Below, piece after piece: positions 2,307-25,049 of a stretch of DNA of 25,049 nucleotides (position 1 is the stretch's first letter; every line of letters starts with the position of its first letter). Under the pieces are notes generated by a model that had not been told where the DNA came from, searched no databases, and worked only from the letters and a program-made list of their open reading frames with translations. Position numbers and translations under genes: made by a program. This DNA is from a virus: positions 1 to 25,049 of IMG/VR virus record IMGVR_UViG_3300032316_000203, one strand, 5' to 3'.

Positions 2307-2489
2307 TTAACGTCTTCTATTTTGTTTAGGATTCTCTTGTTTTATATATGCATTTATCTCTTGTATATATATTTGTCTTACATATACAGGAAGATTATAC
2401 ACTTCTGTAAAAGATAGTGAACCTTTACTATTATAGCTTAAATTAAGTATTTGCTTGTATAAATCTAACTTATACTTTAACGTCAGGCC
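2307..2489 (-). CDS. Frameshift-dependent C-terminal extension of the gp26-like tail protein
   Basis: Just past the gp26-like gene, a second minus-strand frame is open from 2549 to a TAA at 2307-2309 and has no ATG, GTG or TTG near its beginning (the first GTG is deep inside). From the T7 run onward it encodes 60 residues, including LDLYKQILNLSYNSKGSLSF, then TEVYNLPVYVRQIYIQEI, and an Arg-rich end. The amphipathic, protein-like content shows it is not a random frame. It overlaps the end of the gp26-like gene in the +1 frame relative to it, so a +1 (or -2) slip on the T7 run would give a fusion of about 336 residues. This parallels the lambda gpG/gpGT chaperones, which also sit just upstream of the tape measure gene. 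The sequence shows the open frame without a start; the shift itself is inferred. A homopolymer error in the assembly is the main alternative. Confidence 0.6.
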   Translation of the reverse strand, partial: GLTLKYKLDLYKQILNLSYNSKGSLSFTEVYNLPVYVRQIYIQEINAYIKQENPKQNRRR

Positions 2490-3318
2490 AAAAAAACTGT
2501 ACCCCGATGGGAGCGTTAGTGCGAAAGGTTTCCCCTGTTTGTCGATCTGTCACCTCCACTGACAGATTTATTCCCGGTTGAACTTCCTCGATATACTTCC
2601 TCAAAGATCTTGCATCTGAAGCTAACATTTGCGTATCTACAAAATCTCTTATGTACTTAACATCATAATTACCATCTACTGAAACTATATAATATTTTAA
2701 TTGAGTAGATGATATCTTGGATAAACCGTTGAATATCTTTTTATTTTTTTCAATTTCTTCTTGCAACTTTTTTTGATCAAGTTGCCTTAGCATTCTAAAT
2801 GTAATCTTATTCTTAGTCGATGGTAGTTCAAAGTTAAGTTCATTAACTCCTAAACTATCAACATACTGCTCATCTAAAAATTTAAGTTCTATTTCTGATA
2901 AATCAATAGTTTCTCTCTGCTTTTTTCCTGAAGGTGTGTCAATGCTAACTTCGTACTCACTGCCGTATCCAAAAATACGAGAAGCTACTGTTATAGCATC
3001 AATATCCCCAACTAACAAATCATCTAACTTTATACCTTCAGTAACTATTAAAGATTCTAAAAACTTATCAATAACAATTCCTTTTTTAATATATGATTCT
3101 GTAGTAAGAATATCTTCCTCTTTAGCAGTCATATATTTTATCTCAATAGTACCTTTATGAAGAGGACTATCTTTTGGGTAAAGTAGTCCTCTTGAAGGTA
3201 AGTCTATAATTTCTGTAGGAATTCTATATCCTACAGCTTCTTTCTGAGTTTGTGTTACAATAGAACTTTCTTCCTCTGAAATAACATCTTTTTTTGGATA
3301 GCTCGTATCTAAATTCAT
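2470..3318 (-). CDS. T4 gp26-like baseplate hub/tail assembly protein
   Basis: The 282-residue protein carries the signature of the T4 gp26 baseplate family: LPSRGLLYP at residues 40-48, then GTIEIKYMTAKEEDIL at about 56-71, and an aromatic-Pro ending (FFWPD). In T4, gp26 takes part in assembling the baseplate hub. In many T4-like marine phages a homologue lies directly after the tail tube gene, as here. Position before the tape measure gene suggests it acts as a tail-assembly chaperone. The start at 3318 is the first ATG and follows an A-rich leader without Shine-Dalgarno. The last eight codons overlap a second open frame (see the frameshift entries), so both a short and an extended product may be made. 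Confidence 0.8.
   Translation of the reverse strand: MNLDTSYPKKDVISEEESSIVTQTQKEAVGYRIPTEIIDLPSRGLLYPKDSPLHKGTIEIKYMTAKEEDILTTESYIKKGIVIDKFLESLIVTEGIKLDDLLVGDIDAITVASRIFGYGSEYEVSIDTPSGKKQRETIDLSEIELKFLDEQYVDSLGVNELNFELPSTKNKITFRMLRQLDQKKLQEEIEKNKKIFNGLSKISSTQLKYYIVSVDGNYDVKYIRDFVDTQMLASDARSLRKYIEEVQPGINLSVEVTDRQTGETFRTNAPIGVQFFWPDVKV
2490..2496 (-). promoter_or_regulatory. Putative slippery site (T7 run) for ribosomal frameshifting
   Basis: On the coding strand the gp26-like frame reads CAG TTT TTT TGG at its next-to-last few codons (Phe-Phe-Trp-Pro). Skipping one T gives TTT TTT GGC and enters the 60-codon frame ending at 2307. The run lies 18 bases before the in-frame stop, which is where tail-chaperone frameshift sites are expected. 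I did not identify a convincing downstream pseudoknot. Confidence 0.5.
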
Positions 3319-3364: not shown

Positions 3365-3892
3365 TTAGGATGGGAAGTATTCTGCCCAATCATAAGAAAT
3401 TGTTGCTTCAATAGCTACTAAATCATCTGAAGATACATCTAAACTACCCCAATTGATATTGGCAAAGAAAGCACCGTTCAATTCCCAATATGCTCCTGTA
3501 AGTCCGTTAATATCACCTTGAGGTGGTACATAATACAATGTTATCTTCTTCTTATAAGTAGACATATATTCATCAGTATCTACACTTGAATTGTGATGAT
3601 CATCTCTTAACCAATTATGAGCCACAGCTGCACCACTTTTTCGTGCTGTTAATGACTCATAAGGGTCATAGAATGTTACTGAAATATCCTGCCATCTTGA
3701 TTTTCCCTTTATCTTGAATTCAGAGTTGATGGTATCAACTACTACAGGATTATTCTCAATAGATGGAATATCAGTAGTCTTGATAAGATATGATTGCTCT
3801 CCCGCTTCATAATAGGATTGTATGCTCATTATGAAGCGATTCTGCTGCTTCATATCAACAAACTGAAAATTATTACGATATTGTGCTGACAT
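3365..3892 (-). CDS. gp19: Tail tube protein (T4 gp19-like)
   Basis: At 175 residues it matches the length of T4-type tail tube subunits (T4 gp19 has 163). It shows the family's pattern: an N-terminal NRFIMSIQSY strand, KGKSRWQDISVTFYDP in the middle, a YWELNGAFFANINWG strand and a final ISYDWAEYF. Hexamers of this protein stack to form the inner tube of the contractile tail, through which DNA passes. It follows the sheath gene by 40 bases, the canonical gp18-gp19 order. The leader is A/T-rich with a TATTTATA motif 15 bases before the ATG, and no Shine-Dalgarno is visible. Confidence 0.9.
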   Translation of the reverse strand: MSAQYRNNFQFVDMKQQNRFIMSIQSYYEAGEQSYLIKTTDIPSIENNPVVVDTINSEFKIKGKSRWQDISVTFYDPYESLTARKSGAAVAHNWLRDDHHNSSVDTDEYMSTYKKKITLYYVPPQGDINGLTGAYWELNGAFFANINWGSLDVSSDDLVAIEATISYDWAEYFPS

Positions 3893-3932: not shown

Positions 3933-5825
3933 TTAATTATTTCCCGATCCTTCAGGAGTATCACTTGGGAATACTGCACCTGTAGGTAACACAAAGAAAT
4001 CAATTATTACAAATTCCGCAGTTCTCGTTGGTTTCAAATAAATAGCACCTCGTAGTTCATTTCTATCAATTACTTCAGCAGTATTGTTAGATTCATCCAT
4101 CACTACCCTAAAATCATAGAGTCCTTGTTTCTGTCTAATATCTGTGAAATAAGGTGTTACGATATCAACAAATCTTTTTCTCGTTTGAACAGTATTTTGT
4201 TCGAATACTAAATATCTTGAAGTAGATGCTACAAATTTCTTAGCTGCAATTAATAAACGTCTAACGTTTATTCTATCTAATGCAGAACGTTTCTTCTGTA
4301 GTGTTTTCTGACCCCAAACAACAACTCCATCTCTTGGATAAGTAGCTATTGGGTTTATATTACTTGCATATAAATCATCTCTCATTGAGGTAGATAATTT
4401 AGTCTCCACTTGTACTGCAATATCAATTCCACCTCTATTCAAACCCGCAGGAGCAAACCATGGGAAACTAACATAATCATTAAATGATAGTACACCTGCT
4501 ACTAAACATGATGGTGGAAGCCATACGTTTCTGTTCAAATCAGGATCCGCTACTTGAACCCATGGGTAGTACATAGCTGCATAGTTGGAGTTTCTTGACT
4601 CACCTGCTAATTGAGCTTGACCTATCGAATCTCCGTATTTAGTTGGATCTGCTACTAAGAAAACGTCACCTCTATCTTCGCACATTGCGATAGCGTGAGT
4701 TAGGATATCACTATGTTTACCACCTGCTTCTTGTAGAATTCCCGGCATGAACAACATATTTACATCATACTCATCAGCATTAGATAAAATATCCAATGCA
4801 TCATAATAAGCAGTAGAACCGCTAATACCTGCTGCACCCTGAGATAAGTTAAATCCTTGAGTGTTACTTGCTACAATTTTATCATAAAAAGCTCTTGGAT
4901 GTTGAACATATCCATCGCTACCGAAAGCAAAAGTTCCTGACACAGCAGCAGGTAATGATGCAGATAATGCTCCACTTCTAATACCACCTGCTTCGTTCAA
5001 ATAATTTAAAGTTGTTTTAAGAACTTGTACTCGTATGTATCTTGAACGATTTGGATAAGAACCTGATAATTGTAGGTAAGGTCTTCCTGTACCTGTATCC
5101 CTAAGTGTATATACTTGATCTCCTACAATTCTTGGTAAGTACCCTGAATCATTAGGATCTAATGACACATTATTAAATTGCTCAATAACAACTTTTCTAC
5201 CCGTTCTATCGTCACCTCTTCTTAAAACAAGATTAAATGTACCTCTCTTCAAGTTTACATTATTTACTTCCCAACGGAAATTATATCGAGTTCCTAAAGT
5301 TGAAGAAAGTAATCCTAAAGTTTGAGTAGTTGATGGGTCTTCTATACCATTATTAGAAGCTATAGTAGTACCACTATTACCATATAAACCTTCTGACATC
5401 AAATGTATCTTAAATGAAGCAGATGCCTCATTAAAGAATGATGCAGTTAGATCGGTTTTAGTTTTACCTCTATTTCTAAATGATTTAAAAGAACCTGAAC
5501 TTACAACATTAGTTCTTGCTATAGTTGCATTACTGTTTATAATTCTTACAACGGTTAAATTATCTCCGTATCTTAGATATTCTTGAGCAGTATAGTTTGT
5601 TAAGAACTTATATTCTTGAGCATAAGCTCCTGAACCACTGATAAAGCTATTACCAAAAGCTCTAAGGTATTCTGAATAATTTGATATTGTAGTAGGTCTA
5701 AATGCAGGGCCGTATAATGTAGGGCCAATCACTGCTGCTCCGATTGATTGTATTTCTTGAGGAAGGAAACTTAGGTCTTTCTCTCTCGTGAATACACCCG
5801 GACTTACAAATCTTTCGTTAGCCAT
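3933..5825 (-). CDS. gp18: Contractile tail sheath protein (T4 gp18-like)
   Basis: This 630-residue protein begins with the typical sheath N-terminus (VSPGVFTREKDLSFLP). Its C-terminal half has the hallmark segments: FPWFAPAGLNRGGI, YPRDGVVVWGQKTL, LDRINVRRLLIAAKKF and, at the very end, ELRGAIYLKPTRTAEFVIIDF. The sheath polymerises around the tail tube and contracts to drive the tube through the host envelope. Length is close to T4 gp18 (659). The middle Ser/Gly/Thr-rich part (about residues 100-330) is the variable, surface-exposed region in this family. It is followed by the tube gene; upstream is the gp15-like gene. A TATTTATA motif 35 bases before the start may be its promoter element. 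Confidence 0.95.
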   Translation of the reverse strand: MANERFVSPGVFTREKDLSFLPQEIQSIGAAVIGPTLYGPAFRPTTISNYSEYLRAFGNSFISGSGAYAQEYKFLTNYTAQEYLRYGDNLTVVRIINSNATIARTNVVSSGSFKSFRNRGKTKTDLTASFFNEASASFKIHLMSEGLYGNSGTTIASNNGIEDPSTTQTLGLLSSTLGTRYNFRWEVNNVNLKRGTFNLVLRRGDDRTGRKVVIEQFNNVSLDPNDSGYLPRIVGDQVYTLRDTGTGRPYLQLSGSYPNRSRYIRVQVLKTTLNYLNEAGGIRSGALSASLPAAVSGTFAFGSDGYVQHPRAFYDKIVASNTQGFNLSQGAAGISGSTAYYDALDILSNADEYDVNMLFMPGILQEAGGKHSDILTHAIAMCEDRGDVFLVADPTKYGDSIGQAQLAGESRNSNYAAMYYPWVQVADPDLNRNVWLPPSCLVAGVLSFNDYVSFPWFAPAGLNRGGIDIAVQVETKLSTSMRDDLYASNINPIATYPRDGVVVWGQKTLQKKRSALDRINVRRLLIAAKKFVASTSRYLVFEQNTVQTRKRFVDIVTPYFTDIRQKQGLYDFRVVMDESNNTAEVIDRNELRGAIYLKPTRTAEFVIIDFFVLPTGAVFPSDTPEGSGNN

Positions 5826-23698: not shown

Positions 23699-25049
23699 TT
23701 ATAATTTATTTTCTAACTCCTCAATCCTTTTTGTTAGATTTTCAATTTGTTCATCTTGTTTTTTCACAACCTCTATCAATAATGCAGTTAATCTACCATA
23801 AGACACAGAAGATGGTTGATTCTCATCGTCCACGTTAACAATCTGTGGTAAAATATCATACACTTCTTCTGCTATAACACCTATTTCTTTATTATTGTTT
23901 CCTATCTTGTTGTATTGTACCCCTCTTAGTTTTTTAACTATTTGTAAGGGATTTTCAATATCTTCTACATTTTCTTTTATCCTTATAGTTGAAGTTTCTG
24001 TTAATGTTGTACAAGTAACTGTACTACTAAAAGTAGCTGCTCCATTAGTTGTTATTAAAACCTTATTTGTATTAATTGCACTTCCATTACCTGTTTGTCC
24101 TGCAAAAAAATATTGATTATCTGCTCCTACTCCTGTTGTTTGCGCTCTATAAAAAATTGCATCTGCTGAAGTACCTGCGGGTAAAACTGCATTTATGACA
24201 TTTCCACTTATGTTATTAGTTACATTTAATACACCTGTTATACCACTTATATCAGATTGTGAGGTAATAAACCTTCCTGTACCACTCACATCAAGTTTAA
24301 AAGTTGGACTCGCAGTTCCAATACCTAAATTTGTACCATCAAATGTTAAATTTGCTTCCGCATTTATAGTTGTTGATGATACTGATGTTAATACTCTATT
24401 ATCGGCAGGGTTTGTGTAGGATGTTATTCCTGCATTCGAACCTTGAAATCCTTGAGGGCCTGTTATATTAACACTTCCACTAACCAAATGTCCACCCTTA
24501 GCTACAACTACATATCCTGTAGTTGGTGCTCCAAATGATAATTTTACATTATTGTTATCTACTAATTTTACTGAGTTAGGTACAAAATAAAAATCAGATG
24601 AATCATAAGCAGATACTATTACATTTTTTGTATTAAAATTATGAGCTAATGTAATAGAAGACGTAGCTACAAATGAAGCAGCTATAGTTGATGTTTGGGA
24701 TACATTAGTACCCGCTGTTCCTTGAATACCTTGGTTACCTTGCGTTCCTGTTATACCTTGAGCTCCTTGAGCTCCTTGAAATCCTGTTGCACTTACTAAA
24801 TGTCCTCCCTTTGCTACTACTGCATATCCTGTGGATGGGTTAGAGAATGTTAATTTTACTCTATTATTATCAAGTAAATTTATAGTTTCAGGAACAAAGT
24901 AAAAATCAGAAGCATCATAAGCAGATACTATAACATTTTTAGAATTAAAATTATGCTGTACAGTAATAGATGAGGTAGCAGCAAAAGAAGCAGATACCGT
25001 AGCTATTTCAGATACTGTTCCTGTTATACCTTGAAATCCTTGAGTACCT
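23699..25049 (-). CDS. Tail fibre with collagen-like linkers and C-terminal S74 intramolecular chaperone (partial at right edge)
   Basis: The frame is open from the right edge to 23699 (449 residues visible). An internal TTG at 24487 is not the start. From the edge it has GTQGFQGITG, a beta domain (HNFNSKNVIVSAYDASDFYF ... VVAKGGHLVS), a collagen-like linker, a second copy of the same domain 104 residues later, another linker and a head-to-tail stretch with NLGIGTASPTFKLDVSG. The C-terminal S74-type chaperone follows: STIRIKENVEDIENPLQIVK, KEIGVIAEEVYDILPQIV, SYGRLTALLIEVVKKQDEQI and a coiled coil. The Ser (about 23992) and Lys of STIRIK are the expected self-cleavage dyad. Such domains trimerise fibres and are then released by autoproteolysis. 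The N-terminal attachment part lies outside the window. Confidence 0.88.
   Translation of the reverse strand, partial: GTQGFQGITGTVSEIATVSASFAATSSITVQHNFNSKNVIVSAYDASDFYFVPETINLLDNNRVKLTFSNPSTGYAVVAKGGHLVSATGFQGAQGAQGITGTQGNQGIQGTAGTNVSQTSTIAASFVATSSITLAHNFNTKNVIVSAYDSSDFYFVPNSVKLVDNNNVKLSFGAPTTGYVVVAKGGHLVSGSVNITGPQGFQGSNAGITSYTNPADNRVLTSVSSTTINAEANLTFDGTNLGIGTASPTFKLDVSGTGRFITSQSDISGITGVLNVTNNISGNVINAVLPAGTSADAIFYRAQTTGVGADNQYFFAGQTGNGSAINTNKVLITTNGAATFSSTVTCTTLTETSTIRIKENVEDIENPLQIVKKLRGVQYNKIGNNNKEIGVIAEEVYDILPQIVNVDDENQPSSVSYGRLTALLIEVVKKQDEQIENLTKRIEELENKL

Follow-up and report, generated by a model that had tools for sequence, protein, structure and literature searches.

A conserved +1 extension of a gp26-like gene suggests a frameshifted tail assembly chaperone pair in a group of T4-like phages

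The gp26-like locus and its gene neighborhood

The window, a stretch of viral DNA of 25,049 nucleotides, encodes on its minus strand a set of tail genes in the order sheath, tube, gp26-like gene and tape measure gene. The tail sheath gene (3933–5825) matches PF04984 (E = 3e-15) and PHROG_23 (E = 2e-78), and the tail tube gene, which is the upstream neighbor of the gp26-like gene (3365–3892), matches the tail tube family PHROG_4542 (E = 3e-19). The tape measure gene (1–2028) runs off the end of the window; it was identified by BLASTP, which matched its product (E = 1e-13) to the protein annotated as tape measure in Flavobacterium phage immuto. The slot between the tail tube and tape measure genes is that of tail assembly chaperones. 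A 71-aa ORF with no identified family lies just ahead of the tape measure gene (2028–2243); Microcystis phage Mel-JY01 harbors a 71-aa ORF in the same slot, and the two are unrelated by BLASTP.

The gp26-like gene encodes a short form of 282 aa in the 0 frame (3318–2473, minus strand, with the stop codon at 2472–2470) that terminates in GVQFFWPDVKV. The gene ends in CAG TTT TTT TGG CCT GAC GTT AAA GTA TAA, in which the putative slip site TTT TTT TGG occupies 2496–2488, with the first phenylalanine codon at 2496–2494, a run of seven T (T7) at 2496–2490 and the TAA stop eight codons past the first slip codon. Another T7 run on a coding strand is present at 24104–24110, within an ORF cut off by the window boundary. 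The end of the gp26-like gene is overlapped by a +1 frame, open from 2549 to 2307 on the minus strand, which is entered by skipping one T or by moving back two bases. An upstream stop in this frame (2552–2550) limits where a shift is possible. Beyond the site, the frame encodes an extension of 60 aa (GLTLKYK...QNRRR; 2489–2310, stop at 2309–2307). The preliminary description of this DNA held that the frame has no usable start codon, and the first ATG, GTG or TTG in it is indeed a GTG at 2402, already within a conserved protein motif. Its positions and lengths (the gene at 3318–2470, T7 at 2496–2490, the open frame at 2549–2307 and the 60 residues) all hold on recomputation. The probability of 60 stop-free codons arising by chance in one frame at 32.7% G+C is ∼0.009, and hence the window alone is suggestive; the comparative evidence is decisive and confirms that the conserved start-less +1 extension is real, far beyond chance.

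Conservation of the frame and of the slip site

Relatives were collected from IMG/VR as 80 loci fetched with the short form of the window and 80 further loci fetched with the immuto protein, and each of the three coding-strand frames was searched with profile HMMs built for the short form and for the extension. In every one of the 163 loci in which both parts were found and the junction was spanned, the extension is in +1 relative to the gene, whose end it overlaps. The overlapping frame sought in homologous contigs is present in all of them, and neither loss of the frame nor an extension equipped with a start codon of its own was found to characterize the relatives. A canonical -1 arrangement of the extension (X_XXY_YYZ) occurs in 0/163 loci of this clade.

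All 163 overlaps contain an in-frame TTT with T or C as the next base, and the slip site falls at the same position in each, with the form (T/C)TT YTT/YTA TGG/TAC/TTC. Thinning to 106 non-redundant loci leaves TTT TTT TGG at 76 sites, TTT CTT TGG at 20, TTT CTT TAC at four and TTT CTA TGG at two, with TTT TTA TGG, CTT TTT TGG, TTT TTT TAC and TTT CTA TTC represented once each. Wherever the first slip codon encodes phenylalanine it is TTT (105/105 non-redundant loci, which are related by descent and are not independent trials), as compared with 66–89% TTT in other conserved phenylalanine columns. This uniformity has no coding reason, because TTC would specify the same 0-frame residue and reading in +1 does not include the codon; the codon usage points to a slip site maintained by selection.

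A residue-pattern scan of 78 loci places the short-form stop 18–27 nt past the slip codon and the start of the +1-frame open stretch as little as 9 nt upstream of the site. The shift is pinned to the slip site by these two boundaries. A run of six or eight T had been expected to make one continuous gene; two relatives (L022 and L072) do carry eight T in place of seven, yet their extension is still in the +1 frame. The T7 run is not a sequencing error, since it recurs in many independent contigs as well as in the isolates Mel-JY01 and Rhodothermus phage RM378. The idea of a relic, or of a once-continuous gene broken by the errors to which homopolymers are prone, is refuted by the relatives and can practically be dismissed, as 163/163 loci and the isolates share the identical state and both parts of the gene are under selection.

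The +1 arrangement in isolated phages

The arrangement is present in cultured phages. The site reads TTT CTT TGG in immuto and TTT TTT TGG in Mel-JY01 and RM378; the RM378 protein, whose extension is likewise in the +1 frame, is 26% identical to that of Mel-JY01. More distant phages retain a +1 extension with TTT-Y, namely SP-15 (TTT TTT CAC), BRock (CTG TTT CGC) and SagM-GXN1 (TTC TTT CGT), as do LIS04, LuckySocke and pSt2308. The long form is missed or split in isolate records: the extension of immuto (L081, 5707–5949) is unannotated, with just a 36-aa reading within the region, and that of Mel-JY01 (L082, 4737–4973) is drawn as a separate gene. Several isolate genomes are therefore wrongly annotated at the chaperone junction. 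In RM378, the tail tube gene (L095, 3852–4358) and the adjoining sheath and chaperone genes are annotated on opposite strands.

Family and predicted structure of the short form and the extension

The short form of the window matches PHROG_150, a baseplate hub family (E = 2e-11). It has no Pfam match itself; PF12322 (T4_baseplate) is matched by 36 of the 51 family members that were aligned, with a best E-value of 1.5e-18. The short form and the extension were modeled separately with AlphaFold2. The short-form model (pLDDT 89.5) resembles predicted baseplate hub proteins of SP-15 and T4-like phages in BFVD. A sequence search of the PDB gave no match, and fold searches of the PDB gave no firm match; a weak one to the HK97 chaperone structure 2ob9 was at rank 43 (E = 4.5, TM-score 0.48 by target length).

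The extension behaves as a protein-coding segment. Its median dN/dS is ∼0.22, close to the 0.24 of the gene body and indicative of purifying selection, and the differences by codon position (2710/1627/7512) show a third-position excess. Among 51 aligned extensions, Y31, P34 and R38 are invariant within a shared motif, VYN(L/M)P..(L/V)R, which appears as VYNMPIWLR in the alignment. The extension is modeled with confidence (pLDDT 85.6) as a helical mini-domain.

Both T4 gp26 and T4 gp51, which are listed among the hub assembly chaperones (PMC3004832), match PHROG_150 and PF12322. The PHROG_150 match reaches position 280 of 282 in gp51 and position 235 in gp26, and T4 gp51 is, judged by sequence, the long form of the family. 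Comparison of the extension with the gp51 C-terminus by hhalign gives a positionally right, weak match (E = 0.09), and a profile search of the extension gave no match to phrog_634. The full-length product of the SP-15 type aligns over a span that covers the extension, with E = 4.5e-27 for the whole alignment. On genetic evidence both a short and a frameshift-extended form are encoded; by analogy, the two would function as chaperones.

A proposed mechanism and its alternatives

It is likely that one gene gives rise to a short and a long tail assembly chaperone via +1 frameshifting. Most ribosomes would complete the gp26-like frame to yield the short form that ends in FFWPD..., the equivalent of lambda gpG and T4 gp26. 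A fraction would shift +1 at UUU UUU UGG, where the phenylalanine tRNA on UUU would re-pair with the overlapping UUU (UUC at other sites), and reading would continue into the 60-residue helical extension to produce the long form, which would correspond to lambda gpGT and T4 gp51. The frame change is probably translational and probably +1 rather than -2, with slippage of tRNA-Phe on UUU_Y as the favored mechanism. The preliminary description proposed such a strategy with a gp26 homolog, modeled on lambda G/GT. It is supported by the conserved frame without a usable start, by the slip site, by the position of the gene between tube and tape measure and by the homology to gp26 and gp51.

Perfect +1 re-pairing of the phenylalanine tRNA, from UUU to UUU or UUC, is possible at all sites. 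The first codon is able to slip in most of the group; in SagM-GXN1, BRock and its relatives only the second TTT can serve, and the single CTT TTT TGG site breaks any rule that slippage is always on the first codon. UUU ranks with the codons that shift most readily at the +1 site of E. coli prfB (PMC10274946). A conserved RNA stem-loop was detected on neither side of the site (mean z of -0.57 downstream and -0.46 upstream), and a profile of the sites showed no constant upstream Shine-Dalgarno-like element.

The direction had been given as +1 or -2; the frame is borne out, and the sites broken by C or A, together with the distant relatives, favor +1 of the two. A ribosomal shift of -2, for which phage Mu provides a precedent (PMC5009743), would reach the same frame with one residue more and could re-pair at T7 sites. 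It is nevertheless improbable, as re-pairing, reasoned by hand, would be mismatched at the TTT CTA, TTC TTT and CTG TTT sites, while a +1-compatible codon is present at every site. Transcript slippage, in which the RNA polymerase drops or adds a T on T7 so that mixed mRNAs encode both forms, draws on the presence of T7 at 77/106 non-redundant sites. However, C or A interrupts 28/106 of them (TTTCTTT, TTTCTA or TTTTTA) with the extension still in +1, and SP-15 (just T6), BRock (TTT) and SagM-GXN1 (TTCTTT) all retain the +1 extension, which renders this explanation quite improbable. Polymerase slippage could add to the shift at T7 sites. Slippage of the ribosome by +1 is favored because the interrupted sites oppose transcript slippage and some variants oppose a -2 shift.

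The annotators of Mel-JY01 and of cyanophage S-RIM50 drew the extension as its own gene, and many of the 78 scanned loci hold some ATG, GTG or TTG within the frame, which speaks for an extension translated from its own start codon as an independent small protein. This is very improbable, as the window has no start ahead of the GTG in the motif, 10/78 loci have none before the motif and the start positions vary; moreover, a separate protein would give no reason for the selection of TTT at the slip codon or for the constancy of the junction.

Evolution of the family

In cyanophages, the relatives of gp26 have a -1-frame extension, reached at NNT TTT TTC GNN TAR, in 75/75 loci, with the site U_UUU_UUC two codons ahead of the stop (L183, 3459–4357; L184–L263). 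In S-RIM50, what is annotated as a 45-aa 'gp51' belongs to this -1-frame extension. A -1 extension at U_UUU_UUY is also present in the jumbo phages LR756511 (L087), Atu_ph07 (L180), XacN1 (L181) and PA5oct (L182). The cyanophage and jumbo phage genes share the gene family and the place of the junction with the window and differ from it in frame.

In the short-form tree, T4-type phages have their gp26 and gp51 in a single cluster (support 98/95) that adjoins the cyanophages (100/99), which fits a duplication in the T4-type lineage. The +1 phages and the jumbo -1 phages are near one another on the opposite side of the tree, and three changes are needed to accommodate all three labels. Because the tree is midpoint-rooted and contains several long branches, any direction of change is inferred. 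Given +1 and -1 shifts among gp26 relatives, the T4 gp26/gp51 pair looks like a duplication that replaced frameshifting.

The frameshifting of tail chaperone genes in the -1, -2 and +1 directions is known across phages, and a 2016 review describes it as conserved in long-tailed phages with the exception of T4 (PMC5009743). PMC12846349 credits Vladimirov et al. 2022 with polyT -1 signals in the chaperone genes of T4-like phages, and PMC10274946, citing the same study, describes some T4-like phages as having a longer fused gene alongside a short one. No report of a +1 version in the gp26-like family was found in the open literature, taken without Vladimirov et al. 2022, and the conserved +1 chaperone frameshift in the gp26/gp51 family appears to be new. 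The site would be a simple natural +1 site with no stop codon or known stimulator, and it is present in cultured phages. Another mechanism for T4-like phages was reportedly proposed by Vladimirov and colleagues in 2022. A large T4-like group would use a +1 shift and, within the one gene family, cyanophages would use a -1 shift. We lean somewhat toward a broader reading in which a +1 motif with no recognizable stimulator, UUU_YUU_UGG, serves a very large phage group, and relatives of the gene have arrived at the same pair of products by changing among +1 frameshifting, -1 frameshifting and gene duplication.

Comparison with known systems

Like the window gene, the lambda gene for gpG and gpGT occupies the slot ahead of the tape measure gene and yields a frameshifted extended form; lambda shifts by -1 (PMC5009743), whereas the window group would shift by +1, and the two are likened by slot and design. 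Frameshifts in tail chaperone genes are also described for phage Mu (-2) and for the haloarchaeal myovirus HSTV-2 (likely +1) (PMC5009743). These shifts reach the same relative frame as that of the window group.

In the bacterial prfB gene the shift takes place at a stop codon and is stimulated by a Shine-Dalgarno element. Its +1 site, CUU_U, would resemble the sites described here in a P-site slip on a U-rich codon, and some of the present sites are CTT_T; in the window group, in contrast, TGG or TAC follows and a search for a stimulator gave none.

The closest counterpart by protein family is the T4 pair gp26 and gp51, which shares with the window gene the short and long forms and would share with it a role as hub assembly chaperones. 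The preliminary account of a lambda-like short and long pair in a T4-like phage is supported here; it missed the two genes of T4 and the -1 relatives. In T4 the two forms are encoded by separate genes on opposite strands, whereas the window group would obtain both from one gene with a frameshift.
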